The notes under the pieces: generated by a model
Database searches by the model: none
Told to the model about the DNA's origin: nothing
What the model saw: the letters and a program-made list of their open reading frames with translations, nothing else
Shown: one piece after another, positions 6,085 to 35,001 of the stretch
Layout: each line of letters begins with the position of its first letter
How positions within the stretch are numbered: the stretch's first letter is position 1
Program-made: the position numbers and the translations under genes
Assembly: GCA_938003835.1 (NCBI GenBank)
Contig: CALKXJ010000007.1
Span: 248,001-312,000 of the forward strand
DNA length: 64,000 nt
DNA from: an uncultured Bryobacteraceae bacterium
GTDB taxonomy: Bacteria; Acidobacteriota; Terriglobia; Bryobacterales; Bryobacteraceae
Direction of reading: 5' to 3'

Positions 6085-7893
6085 ATGCTTTACGATTCTG
6101 ACCTCGTCGCCATACAGGAGGTACGTTCGAAGGTCGAGACGGCTTACGCCGCTTGGGAGAAATATCGCAACTTCTCTCAGGAGCAAATCGATGCCGTCGT
6201 CGAACGAGCCGCCGCCGCCGGCCGCGCCCATGCCGTCTCCCTCGCCCGGATGGCTGTCGAGGAGACCGGCTACGGCAACGTCCCTGATAAAGTGGCCAAG
6301 AACCTGCTCAATGCCGACTTCCTCTGCCGCACCATGCGGGGCATGAAGTTGGTCGGCCTGCTGAGGGAGATTCCCGAGCAGAAGCTCGTCGAGTACGGCG
6401 TGCCGGTGGGCGTCGTCGCTGCCATCATTCCGATGACCAACCCGACCTCGACGGTCATCTACAAGACGCTCATCTCGCTCAAATCCGGCAACGGCATCGT
6501 CATCAGCCCGCACCCCCGCGCGCAGAAATGCACCGCCCACGCAGCCGACCTGCTCCACAAGGCCGCCGTCGAAGCCGGGGCGCCCGATGGCATCGTTCAG
6601 TGCCTGTCCAACGTCACGCAGGAGGCCACCCAGGCTCTCATGCGGCATCCGAAGACCGGCGTCATTCTCGCCACCGGAGGCCACGGCCTGGTCCGCGCCG
6701 CCTACACGAGCGGCAAGCCCGCCTTCGGCGTCGGGCCGGGGAACGTCCCTGTGCTGCTCGAAAAGACGGCCGACATCGCTCAGGCCGTAGCCAGCGTCGT
6801 CCAGGGCAAAGCCTTTGACTACGGTACGGTCTGCTCGAGCGAGCAGGCCCTGGTGAGCTGCCGGGCGATGCGCGAGGCCGTGCTGGCCGAGCTGAGGAAG
6901 AACAGGGCGTACCTGTGCAGCCCGGCGCAGGCCGAGGCGCTGGGCAAGCTCCTGATCACGCCGCAGGGCACCGTTGACCCGACTTGCGTCGGACAATCGC
7001 CGGTTCGCATCGCGCGGATGGCCGGCTTTGACGTGCCGCCGGACACCTCGATCCTAGCCGCCGAAGTTCAGGGCGTGGGAAAGGATTTCCCGCTGTCGCG
7101 CGAAAAGCTGTCGCCGGTGCTGGCGCTCTATTTCGTCGAGAGCTTCGCCGCGGCGATGGACACCTGCGAGGCGATCCTCCGCTTTGGAGGTTTGGGTCAC
7201 ACCTGTGTCATCTTCTCCCAGGACGAGGCGCGGATCCGGGAATTCGCCGCCCGAATGCCGGCCTATCGCGTACTGGTGAACACCCCGGCGCCGCACGGCT
7301 CGGTCGGGCTAACGACGAACGTCTTTCCGTCCATGACGCTCGGCTGCGGCGCGGTGGCCGGCAACGCCACAAGCGACAACGTCGGACCGCAGCACCTGAT
7401 CAACATTAAGCGGCTGGCCTGGTGGGTGCGCCGGCCGGAAGACGCCATGGAGATCCCGCCGATTCCCGACTCGGCCCTCCTGCCAGCACCCGCTTCGGCT
7501 CCGGCGCCCGCACCGGCGACGGTGCCGCCCGAGCTGATCGAAGCTGCGGTTAGGAAGTACCTAGCCGAACACGGCTACGCTGCGGCAGCGCCGGCACGCC
7601 CGGTGCTGAGCGCCGCTGAGATCGCCGCCCAGGTGGTGGAGCGGTTCCTGGCTTCCCGGCCCGCGCCCCCTCCTCCGCCGCCCGTCTGCCCCGTGCCCGC
7701 GCCTGCTGCCCCCCCGCCCCAGGCCGCGCCCGAACCCGAGGTCCAGATCGCTGACTTCGTCTGCGAAAAGGACGTGCGCGAGGCCATTACCCAAAAGCGT
7801 AAAATTTTCATCGGCCCGAAGACCATCGTGACGCCGGCTGCGCGCGAGCTGGCCGCGGCGGGTGACATTCTGGTGATGGCCCAACGCTCATGA
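6085..7893 (+). CDS. Acylating aldehyde dehydrogenase of PduP/EutE type with long C-terminal targeting tail
   Basis: Residues 1-450 form a CoA-acylating aldehyde dehydrogenase, with [17 protein letters not shown] for cofactor binding and the catalytic Cys250 in [13 protein letters not shown]. The reaction is aldehyde + NAD+ + CoA to acyl-CoA + NADH inside a microcompartment. Typical enzymes stop near 450-490; this one has 602. The extra part holds a Pro/Ala linker, a first amphipathic helix at 481-498 ([18 protein letters not shown]), a second at 508-525 ([17 protein letters not shown]), another Pro-rich linker and a compact tail domain at 555-600 containing [18 protein letters not shown]. 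The helices look like encapsulation peptides. The downstream gene overlaps it by 4 bp. Confidence 0.9.
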
Positions 7894-8387
7894 AAGGGAA
7901 TTTGGACCGCCTTCGAGACGAGATCCAGCAGTATCTGGACTCGAACAACTTCGTCGTCTTCCACAGCCACTCGCGCCTCACCGAAGCGGCGCCTCTGGTG
8001 CACTGGGATTCGAGGCTCTACCCCGACTTCAAGGCATTCCTCGAGGTTTGCCGCCGGCTCGAGGTCCCGCTGGTCTGCTTCCATCACCGGGAGCTCGCCC
8101 CCGACTTCATTGACGATGCTCTGGAGGATCTGGAAAGCGCCGACCTGCCCGCGGACGAATACCAGCGCCTGGGGGAGCGGCTCCGCGAACTGCGCATCTA
8201 TGAAGGCCTCACCAGCGTTATCGAACTGGCCTTCACCTTCGGCAATCAGACCTACATTTACAGTCAGCGCGCCGACTGGTACGAGGAGCTGCTCGAAATC
8301 GCCGACGAGATCGACGACTATCTCGCGGCGGAAGGCAACGGAGAAGGCAACGGCGAGTCGATGAGCGGCTATTTCTCTCGCAATTAG
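7890..8387 (+). CDS. Unknown 165-residue acidic protein, translationally coupled to the microcompartment aldehyde dehydrogenase
   Basis: The start codon overlaps the stop of the dehydrogenase gene (ATGA), so the two are translated together. The protein is soluble, with no signal peptide or membrane span. It carries an internal FVVFHSHSRLTEAAPLVHWD segment, the motif VCFHHRELAPDFIDDALEDL and an acidic C-terminal helix followed by a Gly/Asn/Glu-rich tail. I do not recognise the family. The clustered His residues could bind a metal, but that is speculation. Its position suggests a role tied to the microcompartment, either as cargo or as an assembly factor. It might instead belong with recJ, which starts only 6 bp downstream. 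Confidence 0.75.
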   Translation: MKGNLDRLRDEIQQYLDSNNFVVFHSHSRLTEAAPLVHWDSRLYPDFKAFLEVCRRLEVPLVCFHHRELAPDFIDDALEDLESADLPADEYQRLGERLRELRIYEGLTSVIELAFTFGNQTYIYSQRADWYEELLEIADEIDDYLAAEGNGEGNGESMSGYFSRN

Positions 8388-8393
8388 AGCCGC

Positions 8394-10127
8394 ATGCCGA
8401 TGCCCACCCCGGCGCGCTGGCTCCTGCCTCGAATCAACGAGGCCGAGGTGGAGGAACTGGCCCGCACTGTGCCCGTGAGCCGCCCGGCGGCGCGCGTGCT
8501 CTGGCGCCGGGGCTATCGGGATGCGGCCGCCGCCCGTCGGTTCCTCGAAGCCTCGCTCGATGATCTGCACGACCCGTTCCTGATGAAGGGCATGCCGGCC
8601 GCCGTGGAGCGGCTTCGGCGGGCCGTCACCGGCGGCGAGCGCATCCTGCTGTACGGCGACTACGACGTCGACGGCGCCACCAGCATCGTGATCCTCAAGA
8701 AGGCGATTCAGATGGCCGGCGGCGCCGCCGAGCACTACGTGCCCAACCGGCTGGCCGAAGGCTACGGGATGCGCCCCGAAGTCATGGAGCGCGCCGCCGC
8801 TGAGGGAGTGAGTCTCATCGTCAGCGTCGACACCGGCATCCGCGCCGCCGATGCGCTCGAGCGCGCCCGGGCCCTCGGGCTCGACGTCATCGTCACCGAC
8901 CACCACCTTCCGGAAACCGGCCTGCCGCCGGCCGCGGCCATCCTCAACCCCAAACAGCCCGGCTGTGCCTACCCGGAAAAGGATCTCTGCGGCGCCGGCA
9001 TCACGCTGAAGCTGGCCCAGGCCCTTTTTCAGGCGCTTGAGTGGCCCGAGGATCGCCGCCGCCGCGTCATTGCCTCCATGCTCAAAATGGTGGCTATCGC
9101 CACCGTCGCCGACGTCGTGCCGCTCGTCGGGGAAAACCGCGTCATGGTCAAACACGGCCTGGCCGGCCTGGCCTCGGTGCGCAATCCCGGCTTGCGCGCC
9201 CTGCTCGAGGTGGCGGGCTTCAACCTGGGAGAAGCGCCCTCGGCCGGCCAGGTGGCCTTCCGCCTGGCGCCGCGCCTCAACGCCGCAGGGCGCATGGCCA
9301 GCGCCGAGGATGTCGTGCGCCTGTTCCTCACCGAGGACGAACAAAAGGCCCGCGAGCTCGCCGGGCAGCTCCACGCCCTCAACCAGGAGCGCCAGATCAC
9401 CGAGTCGCGCATCATCGCCCAAATTCTCGAAGAATGCGCGCGCGTGCCGGTCGGCGACGACCAAGCCGCCTTAGTTTTTGCAGGCACGGGCTGGCATCCC
9501 GGCGTCATTGGCATCGTAGCCAACCGCCTAGTCGACCGTTTCCACCGGCCCGCCATCGTTCTGAGCATCGATCCCGAGACCGGCCTGGCGCGCGGCTCCG
9601 GCCGCAGCATCGCGGCGTTCCATCTGCTCGAAGCGCTCGAAGCCGTTCAGGACCTGCTGCTGCGCTTTGGAGGCCACAAGCAGGCGGCGGGCCTGACGCT
9701 GGCGGCGGATCGCATCGACGAACTTCGCCGCCGGCTCAACCGGTATGCCGCTGAGCGGCTTCGGCCCGAGGATCTGCTGCCCACACACGAGTTCGACGCC
9801 CGCCTCGGCCTCGACGAGCTCAGCACGGAGGCGGTGGAAGACATCTTCCGGCTCGCCCCGTTCGGCTTCGGCAATCCCGCGCCGCTGTTCGTCGTCGAGG
9901 AGGCCGAGATCGTCGGCGAACCTTCTCCGTACGGCGAAAACCATCTGCGCATCCGGATGCGCCAGAATGGCCGCCTGGCCTGGGTGAAGGGGTGGAATTT
10001 TCGCGAGCGCGCCGCCGAGCTCGTCGCCGGCACGCGAATCGACGCCGCGATCCAGCTCGAGGCCGACGAGCAATCGGCCGCCCGCGGCTTTCCCGGCTGG
10101 TGCCTCTCGCTCAGGGACGTGCGTTGA
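8394..10127 (+). CDS. recJ: Single-stranded-DNA-specific exonuclease RecJ
   Basis: RecJ degrades single-stranded DNA 5' to 3' in recombination and mismatch repair. The 577-residue length is normal. The DHH phosphoesterase motifs are intact: GDYDVDGATS at 88-97, SVDTG at 144-148 and TDHHLPE at 168-174. The DHHA1 domain motif RFGGHKQAAGLTL lies toward the C terminus, followed by the OB-fold region with EFDARLGLDEL. It starts 6 bp after the preceding gene and probably shares its transcript, although its housekeeping role has no link to the microcompartment. The second ATG two codons in is an alternative start. It converges on the baeRF-type gene. Confidence 0.95.
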   Translation: MPMPTPARWLLPRINEAEVEELARTVPVSRPAARVLWRRGYRDAAAARRFLEASLDDLHDPFLMKGMPAAVERLRRAVTGGERILLYGDYDVDGATSIVILKKAIQMAGGAAEHYVPNRLAEGYGMRPEVMERAAAEGVSLIVSVDTGIRAADALERARALGLDVIVTDHHLPETGLPPAAAILNPKQPGCAYPEKDLCGAGITLKLAQALFQALEWPEDRRRRVIASMLKMVAIATVADVVPLVGENRVMVKHGLAGLASVRNPGLRALLEVAGFNLGEAPSAGQVAFRLAPRLNAAGRMASAEDVVRLFLTEDEQKARELAGQLHALNQERQITESRIIAQILEECARVPVGDDQAALVFAGTGWHPGVIGIVANRLVDRFHRPAIVLSIDPETGLARGSGRSIAAFHLLEALEAVQDLLLRFGGHKQAAGLTLAADRIDELRRRLNRYAAERLRPEDLLPTHEFDARLGLDELSTEAVEDIFRLAPFGFGNPAPLFVVEEAEIVGEPSPYGENHLRIRMRQNGRLAWVKGWNFRERAAELVAGTRIDAAIQLEADEQSAARGFPGWCLSLRDVR

Positions 10128-10154
10128 CCGCGCGGCGGAAACCTGCCGGCGCGG
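10128..10154. terminator. GC hairpin between convergent recJ and the baeRF-type gene
   Basis: Arms CCGCGCGGC (10128-10136) and GCCGGCGCGG (10145-10154) pair over nine base pairs with one bulged G and an eight-base loop. It sits immediately after the recJ stop and 6 bp from the end of the opposing gene, a place where a shared terminator is expected. There is no T-run, so it is not a classical intrinsic terminator. Confidence 0.4.
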
Positions 10155-10160
10155 AAGCGT

Positions 10161-11297
10161 CTAGTAGCGGAAGACCGCCGCCACCAGCCCGCCGCCCGGA
10201 ACCTCCTCCGGCTCGACGGCGTAGACCGCCCCGTTGTTCAGGAACGTGTGCACCGCCGCCAGGTTCAACAGATCCCGGTCGCCGGGACGATGCTCCTGGC
10301 TGACGTGCACCTCGAGCGTCTCCGGATCGAAGCTGCCCCAGAGCTGCCGGCCCGTGGCGACGAACAGATGCTCGACACGGCCCTGCCACGCCGCGGCAAC
10401 GACGGTTTTCACGTCGCTCGAGGCGCGCGGCCCTCCCGCCAGCTCTTCGAAACGCCGGGCCGCCTCCAGGCGCGAGCGCCGCAAATGGGGCTCGGCGATC
10501 TTCCAGGCTTCGGCCTGCAACTCCTCCGGACGCCTGCCCTCCGGGTTGCCGGCCACACCGCGCTCGATCAAATTCGGATGCGTGCTGGCCTCGCGGTACA
10601 GCGGGAACAGATACTCGACCCCGGCCAGCACCAGCGGCGCCCGGTCGTCCCGTAACACCTCGCGCACGCCACGGTCCACGCGACGGAAGAATTCGCGCAA
10701 GTTCTCCTTCTCGTCCTCGTCCTTGGCGCCGTGACCATGAAACTTCACCGTGCTGCCCGCCGTGTGGACCTGGATCTGCCGCTCGACGCCTTCGAGCGCC
10801 AGCACCTCGGTAAAGCTCCTCGGCGTCTCCGCCGGCAGCTCCACCTCCCGGATGCCGAAACGGGTGCACTGAAACAGCCGGATGTCGTTCTTGCTCAGGG
10901 TCAGCAGATAGTAGCGGCCGTCCTCGGTGAACAACCGCATCAGCGGCTTGACGTGAAAACGGTCCGTAACCACTACCAGCTCGTCGAAATGGATCGGCAG
11001 CCGGTAGTAATAGAACTTTTCCGGAGAGCGGAATACCGCCAGGCCGTCCCCCTGGTAGCGCCAGAAGCCATTGTTTTCGCACAACTTCTGCGCCGGCTCA
11101 AGCAGCGCGGCCACCTGGGCCGTCTTCAGCCCCTGGGCCGCGAGCTCCTTTTCGGCTTGCTTGAGCAGGTTCTTCAAGCGGATGGAACCCTGTTTGGCCT
11201 CTACTCCCGCGCGCGCCGTCGGCAGGTAAATCGACACGCACGGTCCCGTCGTCGGTTCGATCAGCCTCTTGAGTTGCTCCTTCCGCAGCAGTTCCAT
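10161..11297 (-). CDS. BaeRF-type protein (bacterial release-factor-1-like fold)
   Basis: The 378-residue protein begins MELLRKEQLKRLIEPTTGPC and continues VSIYLPT, a signature of the bacterial homologues of archaeal/eukaryotic release factor eRF1 (baeRF, class 3-like). The middle contains LTLSKNDIRLFQCTRFGIRE and the later part LRDDRAPLVLAGVEYLFPLY and VVAAAWQGRVEHLFVATG, which correspond to the second and third fold units. There is no signal peptide or membrane span. The family's biochemical function is not known; a ribosome-associated role has been suggested from the fold. It is 57 bp downstream of ktrA on the same strand, with a good ribosome-binding site (AGGAGG) before its ATG. Confidence 0.75.
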   Translation of the reverse strand: MELLRKEQLKRLIEPTTGPCVSIYLPTARAGVEAKQGSIRLKNLLKQAEKELAAQGLKTAQVAALLEPAQKLCENNGFWRYQGDGLAVFRSPEKFYYYRLPIHFDELVVVTDRFHVKPLMRLFTEDGRYYLLTLSKNDIRLFQCTRFGIREVELPAETPRSFTEVLALEGVERQIQVHTAGSTVKFHGHGAKDEDEKENLREFFRRVDRGVREVLRDDRAPLVLAGVEYLFPLYREASTHPNLIERGVAGNPEGRRPEELQAEAWKIAEPHLRRSRLEAARRFEELAGGPRASSDVKTVVAAAWQGRVEHLFVATGRQLWGSFDPETLEVHVSQEHRPGDRDLLNLAAVHTFLNNGAVYAVEPEEVPGGGLVAAVFRY

Positions 11298-11354
11298 GCG
11301 CTTCCTCCTGTTTCTAGATTACAAGGATTAACTTCGCGTTAACGCGGCCGCTTT

Positions 11355-12011
11355 TCACAGGCGCCCTTTGAGGCGTTCGAGATCCTCGTTGCGCCCGAGC
11401 AGCACCAGAATGTGGTGCGCCTCGATGCGGAAGCCCGCCCCGGGATTGACCTCCACCTCGCCGGTCCGGCTGTCCCGCACGGCGAGCACATGAAGGCCGA
11501 AGCGATTGCGCAATCGCAACTGCTCGAGCGAGCGGCCCAGGAACTCCTCAAGCGGCGCCACTTCCCGGATGCTGTAGTCGCGCCCGAGCGGGATGTAGTC
11601 GAGAATCGCCGAGTTTCCCAGGCGGCTGGCCAGCCGCTCCGCCGCCTGCCGCTCCGGCGCAATGATCTCGTCGACACCGATCAGCTCGAGCAGCCGCGCG
11701 TGGTCGTCCGAACCCGCCTTGGCCACGATCCGCTTGACGCCCAAGTCCTTCAGATGCAGCGCCACCAGCGCCGAAGCCTCGATGCTTTCGCCCAGGCTGA
11801 TGACCACGACGTCGTAGTCGCGGATGCCGAGCGCCCGCAAGCGCTGCTTGTCGCGCGCGTCGAGCACGACCGCCTGGGTGCAGTGGTCCTTGATTCGCTG
11901 GACCGCCTCCGGATCCGAATCGATCGCCAGCACCCGATGGCCGGTCTCGTGGAGCGAGCGTACGACCTGCGAGCCGAACCGGCCCAGGCCGATTACCGCA
12001 AAGTGGCGCAT
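11355..12011 (-). CDS. ktrA: Potassium uptake regulatory subunit KtrA/TrkA-type (RCK domain)
   Basis: The 218-residue cytoplasmic protein has an N-terminal Rossmann fold (FAVIGLGRFGSQVV, then Asp in LAIDSD that would bind the nucleotide ribose). A second, RCK_C-type domain starts near IREVAPLEEFLGRSL. It forms a ring under the membrane subunit and gates K+ flow according to bound ATP/ADP or NAD(H). The start chosen is the ATG before MRHFAVIG, 4 bp after the ktrB stop. A longer frame upstream only reads antisense or overlapping ktrB sequence. The single RCK unit matches Ktr rather than the duplicated E. coli TrkA. Confidence 0.92.
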   Translation of the reverse strand: MRHFAVIGLGRFGSQVVRSLHETGHRVLAIDSDPEAVQRIKDHCTQAVVLDARDKQRLRALGIRDYDVVVISLGESIEASALVALHLKDLGVKRIVAKAGSDDHARLLELIGVDEIIAPERQAAERLASRLGNSAILDYIPLGRDYSIREVAPLEEFLGRSLEQLRLRNRFGLHVLAVRDSRTGEVEVNPGAGFRIEAHHILVLLGRNEDLERLKGRL

Positions 12012-12015
12012 AGAA

Positions 12016-13407
12016 TCAACCCACCATGACCTCTTCTTCGGGATAGCGCCAGTCGCCGAGCTCATCCCGGCGTGCCAGGGCGGCGGCTACCGTGAGCGGC
12101 CCCAGCCGCCCCAGAAACATCAGGAAGGTCACCAGCAGCCGGGACACAGGCGCCAGGGCCGGCGTCGCACCCGTGGACAGGCCCACCGTTCCAAGCGCCG
12201 AAATCGTCTCGAACAGGTACTCGAGGAACAGGGCATGCGTCTGCGCGACGCCGGCAACTATCTGCTGGAACATCAACAACAGGAAGACGCCGGCCGTCAC
12301 CACCGCGAGCCCCGCCAGGGTGATGCTCAGCGTGTCCGCCACGGTTTTCGGCCCAAGCGTTCGCCGGAACAGATTGACGTGCGTGCGGTGTCTCAGCCGT
12401 GTCCAGGCCGTCACCACCAGCACGCCGAAGGTGGTCGTCTTCACGCCCCCGGCGCAGGAGCCCGGCGAGCCGCCAATGAACATCAACAGCATGATCACCG
12501 CCAGAGTCGCCGGCGCCAGCCGCCCGATGTCGACCGTATTGAAGCCCGCCGTGCGGCTGGTGACGCTCTGAAACAGGCTCGCCCAGAGCCGCTCGCCCCA
12601 GGAAAAGTTCGCAAAGCTCGAGCCGAGCTCGAGCAGGAAGATCAGAGCCGCCCCTGCCAGAATGAGCACCGCGCTGGTGCTCAGGGCCAGCTGGGAGTGC
12701 AGCGATAGCCGCCGGGCCCGCCGGAGCCATGCAAGCACTTCATAGACGGTGAGATAACCCAAGCCCCCCAGCACGATCAGCGAAACGATGACAAGGTTCA
12801 CCCAGCCGTCGCCGCGCCACGCCGTCAGATTGTCCCGAAAGATCGAAAACCCGGCGTTCGAGAAGGCCGAGACGGCGTGAAAGACCGCGGCGTAGGCTGC
12901 CCGCGCCGGGCCGAGCTCCGGCTCCCACCGCACGAACAGCGCCAGTGTGCCCAGCGCCTCGACGGTGAATGTGAAGCGAACCACTAGCTTCAGCAACGGC
13001 CAGAAATCTTCCCAGAGGCCCGCCCCGGCGAGCGTCTGCGTGAGGATGGTGCGCGAGATCGGCGAAAACCGCCCGCCGAGCGCAGCCAGGATCACCAGCG
13101 AAAGCGTCATGATGCCCAGCCCGCCGAGCTGGATGAGCGCCAGGATGACCAACTGGCCGAAAAGGGTGAATTCCGTGCCCGTGTCGCGGACGACGAGCCC
13201 GGTGACGCAGGTGGCGCTCGTGGCGGTGAACAGCGCGTCCACCACGCCGATGGGCCGCTCGGCCGGTGTGGCGGCCGGGTGCAGGAGCAACAGCGTGCCG
13301 AGGGCGATCAGGGCAGCGAAGCTCGCCACCAGCAGTCGCTGCGGGGCAGGCCCGGAGGCGCGCAGCCGCTCGCCTCGCAGCCACCGTACGACCGCCGCCG
13401 CGCTCAT
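12016..13407 (-). CDS. ktrB: Potassium transporter membrane subunit KtrB/TrkH-type
   Basis: The 463-residue integral membrane protein carries the repeated membrane-pore-membrane units of the SKT superfamily. The selectivity-filter-like segments are TATSATCVTGL in the first unit and FSNAGFS, SRTAGFN and GGSPGSCAGG in the following ones. It passes K+ (with Na+ coupling in Ktr systems) into the cell when KtrA is bound. The ATG at 13407 overlaps the upstream methyltransferase stop (ATGA), and the frame continues upstream without homology. ktrA follows after 4 bp, so both subunits come from one message. Confidence 0.93.
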   Translation of the reverse strand: MSAAAVVRWLRGERLRASGPAPQRLLVASFAALIALGTLLLLHPAATPAERPIGVVDALFTATSATCVTGLVVRDTGTEFTLFGQLVILALIQLGGLGIMTLSLVILAALGGRFSPISRTILTQTLAGAGLWEDFWPLLKLVVRFTFTVEALGTLALFVRWEPELGPARAAYAAVFHAVSAFSNAGFSIFRDNLTAWRGDGWVNLVIVSLIVLGGLGYLTVYEVLAWLRRARRLSLHSQLALSTSAVLILAGAALIFLLELGSSFANFSWGERLWASLFQSVTSRTAGFNTVDIGRLAPATLAVIMLLMFIGGSPGSCAGGVKTTTFGVLVVTAWTRLRHRTHVNLFRRTLGPKTVADTLSITLAGLAVVTAGVFLLLMFQQIVAGVAQTHALFLEYLFETISALGTVGLSTGATPALAPVSRLLVTFLMFLGRLGPLTVAAALARRDELGDWRYPEEEVMVG

Positions 13408-27922: not shown

Positions 27923-28015
27923 GGCCGCGGCCGCCCGGGGGAGGCGCCGGGCTGGCGGCGCTCCCCCGGGCCCGGCTCGAGCGGCAGCGGGCGGCCGAGG
28001 AAGGAGATGAGGTGT

Positions 28016-31000
28016 ATGAGGGCGAATAGGCTGTGGCAGCGGATCGCGGCCGGCCTGATGGCGGCGGTGCTCGGGCCGGCGACGGTCTGGGGCGCGACCT
28101 TCGGGCGGGTGGTGCCGCTCGGAGGACAGGCTTGGGATCTGGCGCTCGATGAGCGCCGGGGCGTGCTGTATGTGGCGAACTTTACCGCCAACCGGGTGGA
28201 TGTGGTCTCGCTCGAGCGGCTGGTGGTGGAGACCTCGATGAACGTGGCCTCGCAGCCGGCTTCGCTGGCGCTCTCGCCGGACGCCCGGCACCTCGTGGTG
28301 GCGCACTACGGCAACTTCCAGGCGCCGCAGGGGCGGGCCAACGCCCTGACGGTAATCGATCTGGAGACCCGGGCGCGGGCCAGCTACGCGCTCTCCTCGC
28401 CGCCGCTCGGCGTCGCCTTCGGCAGCGACGGGCAGGCCCTGGTGGTGACGGCGTCGGAGTTTCTGTTGTTCGATCCGGCGAGCGGGGCCCTGCGCGTGCT
28501 GGCGACGGTGCCGGAGCTTGCGGCGCGCTCGCTGCCGGCGACCGGCGCAAACGCCCCGGCTCAAATCGTCGCCGCTTCGGTGGCCGCCTCGGGCGACCTG
28601 AGTCGCATCTACGGGCTGACCGACGTGTTCGAATTCGGCTATGACGTCTCAAGCCGCCGCCTCGCGGTGCTCGGCTATGTCTCGGACCCGCCGCAGGGCC
28701 CGCGGGTGGTGAGCGTCAACCGCGACGGGACGCGCTACATGGCGGGCTGGGTGCTGCACGGCACGGCGATCTGGGATCAGGCCGCCGGGGTCTGGAACCT
28801 GGCGCAACTGCCCGGCGCGAGCGGGGCGCTCGAGCTCGGAAGCCACGCGATCGATTCGGCGCGCGGCGTCGTCTATGCGCAGTACGCGCGCCGGCGCGAA
28901 GGTGGCTCGGGGGCCGAGCCGCCGGTGCTCGAGGTGCTCGACGGGGACAACCTGGCGGTACGGGAGCGGATCCGGCTGCCGGAGAACCTGGCGGGCAAGA
29001 GCCTGCTGCGCGCCGACGGCTCCATGATGTATTCGATCAGCGAAAGCGGCATCCTGGCGCTGCCGGTGGGCGAGCTGGGGCGCCACCCGCAGCTCAAGGC
29101 GAGCGCCGAGCAGGTCTTCGTCCAGGCCAATGCCTGCGACCGGCGCGTGGTGCGGCGCGAGCTCGCGCTCTATGATCCGAGCGGCCGCGGCGCCGACTTC
29201 ACGCTCGAGGTCAAGGGCGCCGGCGTCGAGGTCACGCCGCGGGCCGGAAGGACGCCGGCGACGGTGACGTTGCGCATCGACCCGAGCGCCTTCCTGAACC
29301 GGCAGGGCACGAGCGCCGTCGAGGTCGAGCTGCGCAGCTCGGCGGCGGTGAACCTGCCGCGGCCGATCCGCGTGCTGGTGAACGTGGCCGGTCCGGAGCA
29401 GCGCGGAACGATCGTGCCGGTGCCCGGCAAGCTGGTGGACATTCTGCCGGATCCCAACCGGGACCGGTTCTTCCTGCTGCGCCAGGACACCAACGAGGTG
29501 CTGGTCTTCGACGGGGCAAGCTACCGGCAGGTGGCCTCGCTCAAGACGGGCAACACGCCCACGCAGATGGCCGTGACCTTCGACCGGCGGTATCTGCTCG
29601 TCGGGCATGAGAACTCGCAACTGGTGAGCGTCTTCGATCTCGAGACGCTCGAGCCGACTCTGCCCGTGCGCACGCCGCCGGGCCATTATCCGCGCTCGGT
29701 CGCCGCCTCGAGCAACGCGATCCTGACCGCCAACCGGGTGAGCGGTCCCAGGCACACCATCGACCGCGTGGACCTGGCCACGCGCATGGCGACCGAGCTG
29801 GCGAGCCTGGGGGTGTGGGAAAACTCGATCGACAAGAGCACCGTCCTAGTGGCTTCGCCCAACGGCGCCTCGATTCTGGCGGCGCAGAAGAACGGGCAGG
29901 CGCTGCTGTATAACGCCAACGCCGGGGAGTTCACCATCTGGCGCCGCCTGGCCGAGGAGGGCGGGCTCAAGGGCGCCTATGCCGCCTCGAGTTATGAACA
30001 GTTCGTCATCGGCGACCGGCTGCTCAACGCCTCGCTGGTGGCGACGGCGCGGTTCGATGCGGCGGCAGGCGAAAGCTCGGGCTTCGCATTTGTGGACGAC
30101 TGGGGCTTCCGCACAGTGGCGCCCGCAGCGACCGATGCCGGCGTGATCGAGCGCTACCGGCCGGAGGGAGGCGCCGGCACGCGGGCGACGCGCCTGGCCG
30201 AGGCGCCCGTGGTCGGCGACGCCGAGTTTCCCTTTACGCGGACGGTAGCGCCGCTTTCGAGCCGGCGCGTGCTGGTGTGCCTGACGGTGTCCGGCTTCAC
30301 GGTGCTCGCCTGGGACTATGACGCTTCGGTGGCGCCGCCCCGGATCACCTCGGTGGTGAACGCGGCCGACTTCACGGAGCCGCTCGCGCCGGGCGGTCTG
30401 ATCACGATCTTCGGCGAGAACTTGAGTCCCGTGAATCAGGCGACCAGCCAGATGCCGCTTCCGACCGCGCTCGGCGAAAGCTGCCTGACGGTGAACGGCG
30501 CGCCGGTGCCGGTGCTGTTCGTCTCGCCGCGGCAGGTGAACGCGCAGTTGCCCTACCAGGCGGAGGGCAACGTCACGATGGTGCTCCGAACGCCGGGCGG
30601 GGTGAGCGACAGTTTTTACTTGCGCCTGCGGCCGACGGCGCCGAGTGTCTTCCGCAGCGGGGTGGCCGGACCGTTGACCGGGCTGCCGGCCGTTGTGCGG
30701 GCATCCAACAACCAGCTGGCGACACCGGCCAATCCGGTGCGCGCAGGCGAAGAGATCGTCATCTACCTGACGGGCATGGGAAAGACGAATCCGCCGGTGG
30801 AGGCGGGCATGCCGGCGCCGGTGGATCCGCCGGCTTCGGTGCTGATTCCGCCCGAGGTGAGCCTGGCGGGCGTGGGCCTGCCGGTGCGCTACGCAGGCCT
30901 GACGCCGGGGCAGGCCGGCGTCTACGAGATCCGGGCGCAGGTGCCCTGGTGGACGCCCGAGGGGATGGAGCAGCCGCTGCGGATCGTCCAGGGAGGCAGC

Positions 31001-31033
31001 GCCACCACGGTGACGGTGCGGGTGGTCAAGTAG
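28016..31033 (+). CDS. Secreted beta-propeller protein with Solibacter-type C-terminal domain (TIGR03437-like)
   Basis: The 1005-residue product has a signal peptide (LWQRIAAGLMAAVLGPATVWG) and YVTN/NHL-like propeller repeats such as LALDERRGVLYVANFTANRV and SLALSPDARHLVVAHYGN. An Ig-like stretch lies near residues 365-470, with a second propeller block from about 475 to 770. The C terminus, about 240 residues from RITSVVNAADFTEPLAPGG, is the domain expanded in Solibacter, with ITIFGENLSP, VLFVSPRQVNAQLPYQ and EEIVIYLTGMGKTNPPVE. The ATG at 28016 has AAGGAG at a normal distance; an ATG at 28007 is too close to that site. It follows the Tad genes and may be a surface or pilus-associated protein. 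Confidence 0.85.
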   Translation: MRANRLWQRIAAGLMAAVLGPATVWGATFGRVVPLGGQAWDLALDERRGVLYVANFTANRVDVVSLERLVVETSMNVASQPASLALSPDARHLVVAHYGNFQAPQGRANALTVIDLETRARASYALSSPPLGVAFGSDGQALVVTASEFLLFDPASGALRVLATVPELAARSLPATGANAPAQIVAASVAASGDLSRIYGLTDVFEFGYDVSSRRLAVLGYVSDPPQGPRVVSVNRDGTRYMAGWVLHGTAIWDQAAGVWNLAQLPGASGALELGSHAIDSARGVVYAQYARRREGGSGAEPPVLEVLDGDNLAVRERIRLPENLAGKSLLRADGSMMYSISESGILALPVGELGRHPQLKASAEQVFVQANACDRRVVRRELALYDPSGRGADFTLEVKGAGVEVTPRAGRTPATVTLRIDPSAFLNRQGTSAVEVELRSSAAVNLPRPIRVLVNVAGPEQRGTIVPVPGKLVDILPDPNRDRFFLLRQDTNEVLVFDGASYRQVASLKTGNTPTQMAVTFDRRYLLVGHENSQLVSVFDLETLEPTLPVRTPPGHYPRSVAASSNAILTANRVSGPRHTIDRVDLATRMATELASLGVWENSIDKSTVLVASPNGASILAAQKNGQALLYNANAGEFTIWRRLAEEGGLKGAYAASSYEQFVIGDRLLNASLVATARFDAAAGESSGFAFVDDWGFRTVAPAATDAGVIERYRPEGGAGTRATRLAEAPVVGDAEFPFTRTVAPLSSRRVLVCLTVSGFTVLAWDYDASVAPPRITSVVNAADFTEPLAPGGLITIFGENLSPVNQATSQMPLPTALGESCLTVNGAPVPVLFVSPRQVNAQLPYQAEGNVTMVLRTPGGVSDSFYLRLRPTAPSVFRSGVAGPLTGLPAVVRASNNQLATPANPVRAGEEIVIYLTGMGKTNPPVEAGMPAPVDPPASVLIPPEVSLAGVGLPVRYAGLTPGQAGVYEIRAQVPWWTPEGMEQPLRIVQGGSATTVTVRVVK

Positions 31034-31076: not shown

Positions 31077-31715
31077 ATGGTCTACCGGAGACTGGTGTGG
31101 GTCGTGCTGCTGACCGGGGCTGTTGTCGGCGCCCGGGGTGAAAGCGCCGAGCTGGGCTTTACCGGCGGCGGAAGTTTCTTTCAGAACAAAAGCGTTCAAG
31201 CCCCGTTCGGGCGGGCGGATGCGGGTTTCGCCCGGGGATTTGCGGCGGGCGTTTGGGGCGGGCACAACTACCGCTGGATCAGCGGCGAGATCCGGTACCT
31301 GTTCGAAAACCAGCAACTGCGGGTAGCCTCCGGCGCCACCCGGGCGGACTTCCGCGGGAGAACGCACGCCATTCATTACAACCTACTGCTTCACGCGACC
31401 CCGGCGGAAGCGAAGGCCCGGCCGTTTGTGGCGGTGGGCGGCGGCATCAAAGGCTACCAGGGAAGCGGCTCAGAGCGCCTCTATCAGCCGCTTCAAGAGT
31501 ACGCGCTGTTGACGAAGACCAGCCAATGGAAGGGCCTGGTCGTCATCGGCGGAGGGGTGAAATGGGCCTTGAGCCCGCGCCTGATGATGCGTCTCGAGGT
31601 CTACGACTACCTGACGGAGTTTCCGGAAAAAGTGATCGCGCCGGCGCCGGGCGCAAGCGTGGGCGGCTGGATCCATAACATCGTGCCGGCAGTGGGAATC
31701 GGCTTCGCATTTTGA
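31077..31715 (+). CDS. Outer-membrane beta-barrel protein
   Basis: The 212-residue protein has a signal peptide (LVWVVLLTGAVVGARG) followed by alternating strands with Gly and aromatic residues: AELGFTGGGSFFQNKS, WISGEIRYLFENQQL and AIHYNLLLHA. It ends in VPAVGIGFAF, with the terminal Phe typical of barrel proteins recognised by the BAM machine. The size suggests an eight-stranded barrel similar to OmpA- or OmpW-like porins. GAGGAG precedes the ATG. It lies 73 bp before a decaheme cytochrome gene and may belong to the same surface complex, though a separate function is equally possible. Confidence 0.75.
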   Translation: MVYRRLVWVVLLTGAVVGARGESAELGFTGGGSFFQNKSVQAPFGRADAGFARGFAAGVWGGHNYRWISGEIRYLFENQQLRVASGATRADFRGRTHAIHYNLLLHATPAEAKARPFVAVGGGIKGYQGSGSERLYQPLQEYALLTKTSQWKGLVVIGGGVKWALSPRLMMRLEVYDYLTEFPEKVIAPAPGASVGGWIHNIVPAVGIGFAF

Positions 31716-31788
31716 GCCTATATACTACGTAGGTGGCGCCTAATTGGGAAGAGGATACGCAATCCCCAACTCCGCGCGGGAGCGCTGA

Positions 31789-32676
31789 GTGGTGATCGCG
31801 CTGCTCGCCCCGGCTGTGCTGCTTGCCGGTTACGTCGGCAGCCAGGTATGCCGGAGCTGCCACCCGGACATCTGGCTGAACTTCTTCCGCAACCCCCACT
31901 TCAAAAGCATCGCCTCGGGCAAGGAGCCCCCGGAGCGCACCGGCTGCGAAGGCTGTCATGGACCTGGCGCCGGGCACGTGGAGGCGCGGGGCGGCAAGCA
32001 GAATATCCGGGCCTTTTCTCTTCTCGAGCCCCAGGGAGTGCTCCGAGCGTGTCTGGACTGCCATGCCCGGGAGATCTCGCGGGCGGCGATCCGGCGCTCC
32101 GCTCACACGCTGGCCGAGATCGTCTGTACGAACTGCCATTCGATTCACCGCTCGCCGGTTCCGCAGTTTCTGCTGGCGCGCCGCCAGACCGACCTCTGCT
32201 ACGAATGCCACGCCGAGGTGCGCGCTCAGTTTTCCCTGCCCTCGAAGCACCGGGTGAATGAAGGTACCGTGAAATGCACCGACTGTCACAATCCGCATGG
32301 CGCGCAGGCGGCGACCTGGCGCATGGGATTGCGGCCGCGCATGGTGGAGGTGGCGCAGGCCAACGAGCAGCCCTGCCTGCGCTGTCATGCCGACAAGCGG
32401 GGGCCGTTCGCTTTCGAACATGCGGCGGTGCGGGTGGACGGCTGCGAAGCCTGTCATCTGCCCCACGGCTCGATGAACGCGCGCCTGCTAAGGCGTCCGG
32501 TGGTTTTCACGCTGTGTCTGGAATGCCACAACGGCGCGGATGGATTCGGGCGGCAAGGCGACGGGGTGCGCCTGACGTCGGCCTCGCACAATCTGGCCGA
32601 TTCGCGCTATCAGAACTGCACCGGTTGTCACTTGCGCATCCACGGCTCGAACAGTTCGCCGCTGTTTCTGAGGTGA
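31789..32676 (+). CDS. Periplasmic decaheme c-type cytochrome, MtrA/DmsE-like
   Basis: Ten CxxCH haem-attachment motifs are present in 295 residues: CRSCH, CEGCH, CLDCH, CTNCH, CYECH, CTDCH, CLRCH, CEACH, CLECH and CTGCH. Ten haems in about 300 residues is exactly the MtrA/DmsE architecture, in which the cytochrome sits inside an outer-membrane porin and forms a haem wire across it. The start is GTG at 31789, six bases after GGGAG. An in-frame stop directly upstream excludes a longer leader, so the signal peptide is short (MVIALLAPAVLLAGY) and without a basic N end. The porin gene follows after 8 bp. A TATACT at 31721-31726 could be a -10 element. Confidence 0.92.
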   Translation: MVIALLAPAVLLAGYVGSQVCRSCHPDIWLNFFRNPHFKSIASGKEPPERTGCEGCHGPGAGHVEARGGKQNIRAFSLLEPQGVLRACLDCHAREISRAAIRRSAHTLAEIVCTNCHSIHRSPVPQFLLARRQTDLCYECHAEVRAQFSLPSKHRVNEGTVKCTDCHNPHGAQAATWRMGLRPRMVEVAQANEQPCLRCHADKRGPFAFEHAAVRVDGCEACHLPHGSMNARLLRRPVVFTLCLECHNGADGFGRQGDGVRLTSASHNLADSRYQNCTGCHLRIHGSNSSPLFLR

Positions 32677-32684
32677 GGGCGACC

Positions 32685-34682
32685 ATGGGCCTCAGGCACT
32701 GGCTGTCGTTTCTGGCGCCGGCGGCGTTGTTGGCCCAGCCCACCGTGGCGCCCTCGCCCGAGACGGGGACGCGCCGAGGGGAGGACGCTTTCGGTTACAA
32801 CTTCGTCAACTCCTGGGAGGTCGGCTACCGGGCGCGGCGGCTGGCGGGGCAGGAGAGCAAGTACCGCAGCGATGTCAATTTCGGCAACGGCGTCCGCCTG
32901 CTGGCGGCTCAGGCAGGCATCTACTCGCGCGACGGCCGGGGCAAGTACTTCGACCAGCTCCTATTCACGGCGCAGGGGCTCGGCAACGACCCCTACCAGA
33001 GCGCCGTGCTGCGCCTGGAGAGGAACCGGCTCTATCGCTACGAGCTCGGCTGGCGCGAGAACGCCTATTTCAATCCCGGGCTGGTGATCGGGCGGACCTC
33101 GCAGGCGCTCGACACGCGCCGCCGCTGGCAGGACCACGATCTGGTGCTATTACCCGAGTCGCGCCTGCGCCTTCTGGCCGGCTATAGCCGCAATTCGCAG
33201 TCCGGGCCGGCTCTGGCGACGTTCAACATCGACGGCGCCCTGGGCGACGAATTTCCCGTCTTCGCCGACATCCGGCGCAAGCAGAACGAGTACCGGCTGG
33301 GGGGCGTGGCCGAGCTTCGCGGATGGCGGCTGACGCTGATGCGAAGCTGGGAGAACTTCAAGGAGGACACGCGCCACAGCCGGACGACGCCGAGCGAGGG
33401 GGGCAACCCGGCCGATCGCATCCGCCTGCTGGCTCTCCGCCGCGATGAACCCTATCACGGCATGACGCGAAGCTGGCGGCTGCACCTGGCGAGCGGCGAG
33501 CGGCGCGGCTACGCGGTAAACGGGCGGCTCACCTATGCCGGCGGTGAACGAGCTTTCGTGGCCGACGAGGTCTTCACCGGCACGAACCGACTGGCGGCGG
33601 AACGTAACCGGCAAGTGGTGGCTTTTGGCGCAGGGCGGCGACCGGTGGCGACCGGCAACCTGACCCTCACGCTCATGCCCGCGGCGCGGGTGACGGTGAG
33701 CAACCACACCGCGCTCTACCACGTTCGCATGGAAGGCGATGCGGCGCTCACCGAGTTCAACAATGCGGTGCGCCTGCCCACTTTCGTCTATTTCCAGGCG
33801 CTCGGGATCCGGACGCTGGCCAACATGACGGACGTCAACTACCGCCCATCGGCGCGCGTGGGCCTGTACGGAGGCTACCAGGTCGCGACGCGGCGGATCC
33901 GGTCGCGCGAGCGGCTGGAAGTGGAGGGTTTCGAGGAGATCGTGTCGGCGGAGCAGATGAGCACGATCCAGGCCGGGCTGGCTGGGCTGCGCCTGAAGCC
34001 CGCGGGTCCCTTGACGCTGAGCTTTACCGGCGAGCTGGGGCGAGCCGACCGGCCCCTCTATCCGACGAGCGAACGGCGGTACGAAGGCTTCGGAGGGCGG
34101 GCGGAGTACAGGACCAAAACCATCCGCTTGGCGGCTTCCGCCTCCTCGCGATGGAACGTGAACTCGACGGCGCTGAGCGCCCACAGCTCTCGCGGGCGCA
34201 GCTACACCGCGGAGGGAGCCTGGACACCGTCAGCGCGGCTGGCGATAGAGGCGGGCTATGCGAGAGTCCACCTCGAGACTGTCTCTGGACTGGCTTACTT
34301 CTCCGCGGCGCGGCTCATCACCGGCGAGCAGTCCATCTATCGAAGCAATCTGCACACGGGGCACACCGGATTGCGGCTATCGCTCCGCAACCGCCTGGAT
34401 GTTTATCTTGGCTACCACCGGGTCCAGGATGCGGGCGACGGGCGTGCGGCGGCCACTCAACCGCCGGCGGGTAGGACAACGGGTACGGCTCAGGCAGCAT
34501 TACTCGCAGCGCAAACCTTTCCGGTCACCTACCAGTCCCCCCTTGGCCGCCTCTCCCTGAGGATCCACGACAAGCTACGCTGGAACGCCGGCTATCAATG
34601 GTACGGCTATGCCGAAGCGTTCGCGAGGTGGCAGAACTACCGCGCTCATACGGGATATACCAGCCTGAGCTGGTCGTTTTGA
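32685..34682 (+). CDS. MtrB/PioB-like outer-membrane porin for the decaheme cytochrome
   Basis: The 665-residue protein has a short signal peptide (HWLSFLAPAALLAQP) and then many alternating beta strands up to the C-terminal TSLSWSF, ending in Phe. The length matches the 26-28-stranded MtrB barrels. MtrB proteins often carry an N-terminal CxxC motif; I see no cysteine here, so this is a divergent member. Together with the preceding decaheme gene it makes the minimal pair for trans-outer-membrane electron flow. The frame is open far upstream through the cytochrome gene, but ATG at 32685, 8 bp after the cytochrome stop, is the sensible start. Confidence 0.8.
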   Translation: MGLRHWLSFLAPAALLAQPTVAPSPETGTRRGEDAFGYNFVNSWEVGYRARRLAGQESKYRSDVNFGNGVRLLAAQAGIYSRDGRGKYFDQLLFTAQGLGNDPYQSAVLRLERNRLYRYELGWRENAYFNPGLVIGRTSQALDTRRRWQDHDLVLLPESRLRLLAGYSRNSQSGPALATFNIDGALGDEFPVFADIRRKQNEYRLGGVAELRGWRLTLMRSWENFKEDTRHSRTTPSEGGNPADRIRLLALRRDEPYHGMTRSWRLHLASGERRGYAVNGRLTYAGGERAFVADEVFTGTNRLAAERNRQVVAFGAGRRPVATGNLTLTLMPAARVTVSNHTALYHVRMEGDAALTEFNNAVRLPTFVYFQALGIRTLANMTDVNYRPSARVGLYGGYQVATRRIRSRERLEVEGFEEIVSAEQMSTIQAGLAGLRLKPAGPLTLSFTGELGRADRPLYPTSERRYEGFGGRAEYRTKTIRLAASASSRWNVNSTALSAHSSRGRSYTAEGAWTPSARLAIEAGYARVHLETVSGLAYFSAARLITGEQSIYRSNLHTGHTGLRLSLRNRLDVYLGYHRVQDAGDGRAAATQPPAGRTTGTAQAALLAAQTFPVTYQSPLGRLSLRIHDKLRWNAGYQWYGYAEAFARWQNYRAHTGYTSLSWSF

Positions 34683-34689
34683 GTCTTGT

Positions 34690-35001
34690 ATGGACCCCCG
34701 GTACGCGCCGTTCAACATCACGACGGCCGTGGCGCTTGTGCTGACGCTCTGGGTGATGGTAGCCCGGGTGCGCGGTGCGCGGGAAAGCAATTGGCCGTTA
34801 CTTTACTATCTGGGCGTGGTTCTCTATAGTTACCAATATCCGGGTTATCTGGAGTCGCGGTTCATTTACGCGGGCGTGCTGGCCGGTCTGTTTCTGCGTT
34901 TCGAGTTCATGGGCCGGGGCTTCGCCAGGTTCGTGCAGGCGGTGGAGTTCATTATCCTCGGACTGTTCATCTACGCCTTCGCGCGGATCATAAGGATCTG
35001 A
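34690..35001 (+). CDS. Small membrane protein of unknown function (103 residues)
   Basis: Three or four hydrophobic segments are visible (ITTAVALVLTLWVMVARV, LLYYLGVVLYSYQY, FIYAGVLAGLFLRF, FIILGLFIYAFARII). There is no recognised domain. It lies 7 bp after the porin gene, so it is probably in the same transcript; a quinol or inner-membrane docking role for the electron pathway is possible but unsupported. It converges on murA, with 28 bp between the stops. Confidence 0.7.
   Translation: MDPRYAPFNITTAVALVLTLWVMVARVRGARESNWPLLYYLGVVLYSYQYPGYLESRFIYAGVLAGLFLRFEFMGRGFARFVQAVEFIILGLFIYAFARIIRI

Follow-up and report, generated by a model that had tools for sequence, protein, structure and literature searches.

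When a gene for a ten-haem c-type cytochrome is followed directly by a gene for an outer-membrane barrel, with no surface cytochrome beside them, do the two encode an electron conduit through the outer membrane? This question is raised by a locus in a 64,000-nucleotide stretch of DNA, here called the window, from an uncultured Bryobacteraceae bacterium (assembly GCA_938003835.1, contig CALKXJ010000007.1, positions 248,001 to 312,000). The original prediction had read the locus as a divergent porin-cytochrome conduit of the MtrA/MtrB type in an acidobacterium, with a small barrel upstream and a small membrane protein downstream (Table 1). An acidobacterial host agrees with the Bryobacteraceae-type relatives of the locus, and the coordinates of the open reading frames match the predicted layout of ten CXXCH motifs in 295 residues, a gap of 8 bp between the cytochrome stop and the porin, and a 665-residue barrel ending in Phe.

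Table 1. Predicted genes of the putative conduit locus and their positions in the window
Feature	Positions	Strand	Remarks
Predicted small outer-membrane barrel	31077-31715	+	212 residues, 73 bp upstream of the cytochrome
Decahaem c-type cytochrome, MtrA/DmsE family (TIGR03508)	31789-32676	+	295 residues; exact start uncertain
Predicted outer-membrane beta-barrel with MtrB fold, putative conduit porin	32685-34682	+	665 residues, ATG at 32685
Predicted four-helix membrane protein with R-F-E-F motif	34690-35001	+	103 residues, 7 bp after the porin

The decahaem cytochrome and its porin

The ten CXXCH motifs of the cytochrome compare with an average of 0.09 and a maximum of 3 in composition shuffles. 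Every one of its 20 cysteines lies inside a haem motif, and it has exactly 20 histidines, 10 of them proximal (CXXCH) and 10 elsewhere. The protein passed the curated threshold of TIGR03508, the model of the DmsE/MtrA family, with 261.4 bits against a cut-off of 192.2, and scored 217 bits with the model of GSU2203 from Geobacter, below that model's cut-off of 325 bits. Its best solved sequence relative was MtrA (chain 6r2q_A, E = 8e-34); the record of this chain carries the molecule name 'cystathionine beta-synthase', which is evidently wrong, because 6r2q is the Mtr complex in the structure search. All 20 histidines were conserved among relatives, and those outside CXXCH were kept at 99–100% in an alignment of family orthologues, so that a second histidine ligand is possible for each haem. 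Judged by these residues, all ten haems could be bis-His coordinated, as expected for MtrA. The cytochrome tree placed the window protein inside one well-supported Bryobacteraceae-type clade, apart from other acidobacterial cytochromes and from the cytochrome of the genome's own MtrCAB locus (described below); branches in this tree are long and the deep order is unsure.

The N terminus of this copy is atypical. The GTG at 31789 is directly 3' of an in-frame TGA, the predicted N terminus has a hydrophobic stretch with no positive charge, and the signal peptides of relatives are longer and of ordinary type; for these reasons either the start or one base of the sequence is uncertain. The region from 31744 to 31800 reads in frame as TTG...CGC-TGA-GTG-GTG, and translating the codons 5' of the TGA would give the charged beginning of a signal peptide (LGRGYAIPNSARER). 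The TGA may come from a wrong base, or this copy may really have a short signal peptide; at 6 bases 5' of the GTG there is an SD-like GGGAG. The unusually short signal peptide that had been pointed out probably reflects a peculiarity in the start codon or sequence of this copy and not a trait of the family.

The porin escaped all sequence-based family assignment. Pfam, NCBIfam and PDB sequence searches with the window porin returned no match, and neither TIGR03509 nor the Pfam MtrB model matched it or any of 21 relatives at E = 1. The miss by TIGR03509 is real, since the canonical MtrB of Photobacterium, used as a positive control, scored 551 bits. This control protein has a C-S-D-C motif near its N terminus, whereas the window porin, which ends in WSF, contains no cysteine among its 665 residues, as predicted. 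The model of GSU2204 from Geobacter was matched weakly by 5 of 22 porin orthologues and by 3 porins elsewhere in the phylum (best E = 5e-6), but not by the window porin itself, which has neither a CXXCH motif nor any cysteine.

Structure comparison gave a clearer result. We used an AlphaFold model of the window porin built from 64 sequences (pLDDT 81, pTM 0.74), for which MtrB (6r2q_B) came out on top, with a Z score of 20.9 over 565 residues at 3.8 Å. The best runner-up reached Z = 15.4 at 24.6 Å, and the others scored about 15 over at most about half the length and with far larger r.m.s.d. Foldseek also ranked 6r2q chain B first (E = 2e-16, with the next match at 6e-11). At the profile level, the porin is clearly homologous to its counterpart in the MtrCAB locus of this genome (574 columns aligned by hhalign, E = 5e-29) but had no detectable homology to the canonical Photobacterium MtrB profile, and its sequence link to MtrB therefore runs only via the genome's own MtrCAB porin. 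According to its model, the window porin is an MtrB-fold barrel of divergent sequence. Membership of another barrel family is argued against by the position of MtrB well clear of all other barrels, and the failure of TIGR03509 and Pfam to recognize the porin agrees with the divergence that had been proposed. With the TIGR03508 score and the MtrA match of the cytochrome, these results uphold the original prediction of an MtrA/MtrB-type pair.

Pairing across the family and independence from MtrC

We examined the flanks of the pair in 80 named relatives, over 6 kb at most and less at contig ends. The cytochrome was next to the porin in 77 of them, and in the remaining 3 the contig end comes first; ten haems were found beside the porin at all 76 loci with an uncut cytochrome. 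Only one of the 80 loci (L104) had another multihaem gene (at least 3 haems) within these flanks, namely MtrC. There, an MtrC-family cytochrome (8272-10305) lies directly 3' of the window-type pair, the sole case in the sample, and the locus may record the gain or loss of MtrC.

The same arrangement extends beyond the family. Across the wider phylum, we found the porin family in 91 of 396 genomes, and a 10- or 11-haem ORF lay directly upstream of the porin at all 30 loci that were read. At L148, L163, L158 and similar loci from other acidobacterial families, an extra multihaem gene adjoins the porin-cytochrome pair; 0 of the 6 such genes tested matched the MtrC family, most of them being cut by the locus end.

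The 64-kb window contains no other multihaem ORF and no MtrC/OmcA-family surface cytochrome, and no genes for a quinol oxidase or a periplasmic carrier adjoin the pair. No DMSO reductase genes, which a DmsEF-type reading with DMSO respiration would call for, were noticed beside the pair in an unsystematic look.

To relate the pair to MtrC at the level of whole genomes, we tabulated both in 200 genomes of the family. A strong porin match (E < 1e-90, read off the result table) was present in ~148 and an MtrC above the cut-off in 146. Both were present in 111 genomes, the pair only in 37, MtrC only in 36 and neither in 16, where the sorting into strong and weak matches was made by hand from the tables and may be wrong for fragmentary genomes; the presence of the pair and the presence of MtrC are statistically independent (p = 0.47). 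Among the 37 pair-only genomes, 27 had no MtrC match at E = 1e-3, including near-complete genomes such as G103, in 4 contigs. This presence in genomes without MtrC argues that the window-type pair does not depend on MtrC.

We also sampled the cytochrome complement of the window's own genome by family. On another contig, it encodes a complete MtrC-MtrA-MtrB-type locus (L038; G000:C23:52000-71000, positions 7388-12305), in which an OmcA/MtrC-family decahaem protein (498 bits) is joined by a decahaem protein of the MtrA family (235 bits) and by a barrel. The MtrA of this locus shares 42% identity with the window cytochrome. The claim that no MtrC is adjacent thus holds for the window locus but not for the genome. 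The L038 locus is, like Group 5 described for Bryobacterales by Baker et al. (2022, PMC8805035), an MtrCAB locus from the same bacterial lineage, but unlike Group 5 it is not followed by a tetrahaem gene. The window pair differs from Group 5 in having neither mtrC nor a tetrahaem gene.

In addition to MtrC/OmcA-like proteins, CymA-like quinol oxidases had been suggested as a search target in the nearby genome. The only short protein of the NapC/NrfH type that we found was an NrfH next to an NrfA-like nitrite reductase, and this sole candidate for a CymA-type partner is probably not dedicated to the pair because of that neighbour. Two larger NapC/NrfH-like multihaem proteins could possibly feed electrons to the periplasm. 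The NrfH gene adjoins that of the NrfA-like pentahaem nitrite reductase at L138 (6822-8684; G000:C7, ~45 kb), and with this gene pair the organism may be able to reduce nitrite to ammonia.

Small proteins flanking the pair

The small membrane protein that had been noted downstream is confirmed as a 103-residue product with four predicted helices (pLDDT 89). The Arg and Glu of its R-F-E-F motif are invariant. It was present in 50 of the 80 loci, mostly close 3' of the porin, was absent from one group of relatives and occurs as a single copy in the genome. Searches yielded no family, no convincing fold match and no defence-protein match, and we consider it a new candidate accessory of the conduit. 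The available portions of the papers on Group 5 and on the Bryobacter/Solibacter homologues make no mention of a four-helix protein after the porin (PMC8805035, PMC5900883).

For the small barrel upstream, the ORF is present as predicted, but its identity as a barrel received weaker backing, with small-barrel models matching weakly (OMP_b-brl, E = 4e-4, below the cut-off). The gene was kept upstream of the cytochrome in 30 of the 80 relatives, and its product would be an optional partner of the pair. It sits in a wider conserved neighbourhood, with a 1008-residue protein upstream and putative murA and murQ genes downstream, and may therefore be linked to the pair by position only; the gene names murA, murQ and Tad were read from sequence, outside the set of tested proteins. 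The 1008-residue protein (28007-31033) is a beta-propeller with a Solibacter C-terminal domain (TIGR03437), found upstream of the pair in ~30 of the 80 relatives.

A candidate conduit without a surface cytochrome

We estimate a probability of roughly 85% that the pair is an MtrAB-type outer-membrane electron conduit that operates with no MtrC surface cytochrome dedicated to it. The computed basis for this reading comprises the cytochrome family, the haem-ligand pattern, the MtrB-like porin fold, the strict pairing, the absence of an adjacent MtrC and the occurrence of the pair in genomes with no detected MtrC. Counted against it were the failure of the porin with the MtrB/PioB family model, the empty profile comparison with a canonical MtrB, the poor-looking signal peptide of this cytochrome copy, the lack of a quinol oxidase or periplasmic carrier gene beside the pair, and the reports of aerobic carriers of mtrA/mtrB homologues (PMC5900883). 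Complex formation, haem insertion, conduction, the location of the small proteins, the direction of flow and the substrate are what we infer. The ten-haem cytochrome would sit inside the MtrB-fold barrel or at its periplasmic mouth, with the barrel as a sheath, and its chain of bis-His haems would carry electrons across the outer membrane. Exchange with an extracellular donor or acceptor would then be direct and could involve soluble or chelated iron, a shuttle or humic matter, comparable to proposals for MtoAB and PioAB.

There are precedents for such a two-component system. Placed in liposomes, MtrAB by itself is able to transfer electrons across a membrane (reviewed in PMC4245776). There are also mtr-type clusters that lack mtrC, above all ones for Fe(II) oxidation (PMC4245776), and PioAB has no extracellular cytochrome (PMC6831781). 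The window pair resembles the MtrAB part of Shewanella MtrCAB (6r2q) in its ten-haem MtrA-family cytochrome, MtrB-fold barrel and bis-His pattern, but differs in having no adjacent MtrC and a porin that MtrB sequence models do not recognize. It is also similar to MtoAB of Sideroxydans and PioAB of Rhodopseudomonas, which are two-component porin-cytochrome conduits without an extracellular cytochrome, although the window cytochrome does not have the long N-terminal extension of PioA and the window porin is too divergent for the MtrB/PioB family model.

This similarity bears on the direction of flow. The conduit may serve mainly for electron uptake, for example in Fe(II) oxidation as with MtoAB and PioAB, instead of electron disposal, and a layout without MtrC has been described for those two systems (PMC4245776, PMC6831781). 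According to Baker et al., however, MtoA and PioA do not make up a function-specific clade (PMC8805035), and gene layout consequently gives no direction; nor were MtoC, MtoD or PioC homologues, or other known partner genes for Fe(II) oxidation, noticed beside the pair in an unsystematic look. We give uptake a real but minor share of the probability, with outward flow through the pair slightly favoured.

A role as a spare or alternative core, acting in trans with the MtrC from another contig and so functionally MtrCAB, is rather improbable for the pair. The genome does encode an OmcA/MtrC-family decahaem protein (the 498-bit match at L038), and MtrC directly adjoins a window-type pair in the relative L104, but the genome's MtrC already has its own MtrA and porin, 27 family genomes, near-complete G103 included, carry the pair with no MtrC match, and the presence of one is independent of the other. 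We regard as very unlikely a periplasmic decahaem electron buffer with a transport porin that is merely its neighbour: the MtrB family model does not pick up the porin and the conduit complex is itself a deduction, but cytochrome-porin adjacency is strict across family and phylum, and MtrB is the top structural match of the porin by a wide margin.

Conduits of the type proposed for the window pair are already known, and so are related genes in this lineage. A 2013 paper pointed out MtrA/DmsE homologues in Solibacter (PMC3669403). Candidates for mtrA and mtrB in Ca. Solibacter usitatus and Bryobacter aggregatus, which share their bacterial lineage with the window pair, followed in 2018, with complete mtr/omc operons lacking (Eichorst et al. 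2018, PMC5900883), and MtrCAB in Bryobacterales was published in 2022 (PMC8805035). Several carriers of mtrA/mtrB homologues are reported to be aerobes, and Eichorst et al. doubt a Shewanella-like iron reduction by them (PMC5900883). The window pair is unusual in standing alone with no surface cytochrome, in its divergent sequence and in its occurrence across most of the bacterial family. A literature survey of incomplete coverage turned up nothing on the small downstream protein, on independence from MtrC or on a structural identification of this porin branch.

More tentatively, and with the odds against it, the locus might represent a distinct, near-core conduit of Bryobacteraceae, formed by an MtrA-type cytochrome, a divergent MtrB-fold barrel and the new four-helix membrane protein with no surface cytochrome; its hosts would be bacteria commonly taken for aerobes, and its function something other than classical iron respiration. 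Because it occurs in genomes without a detected MtrC, the pair is a natural test of MtrAB acting alone. Standard MtrB searches overlook the porin side of the pair. If the pair does conduct, a large family of soil acidobacteria would have a built-in electron wire through the outer membrane.
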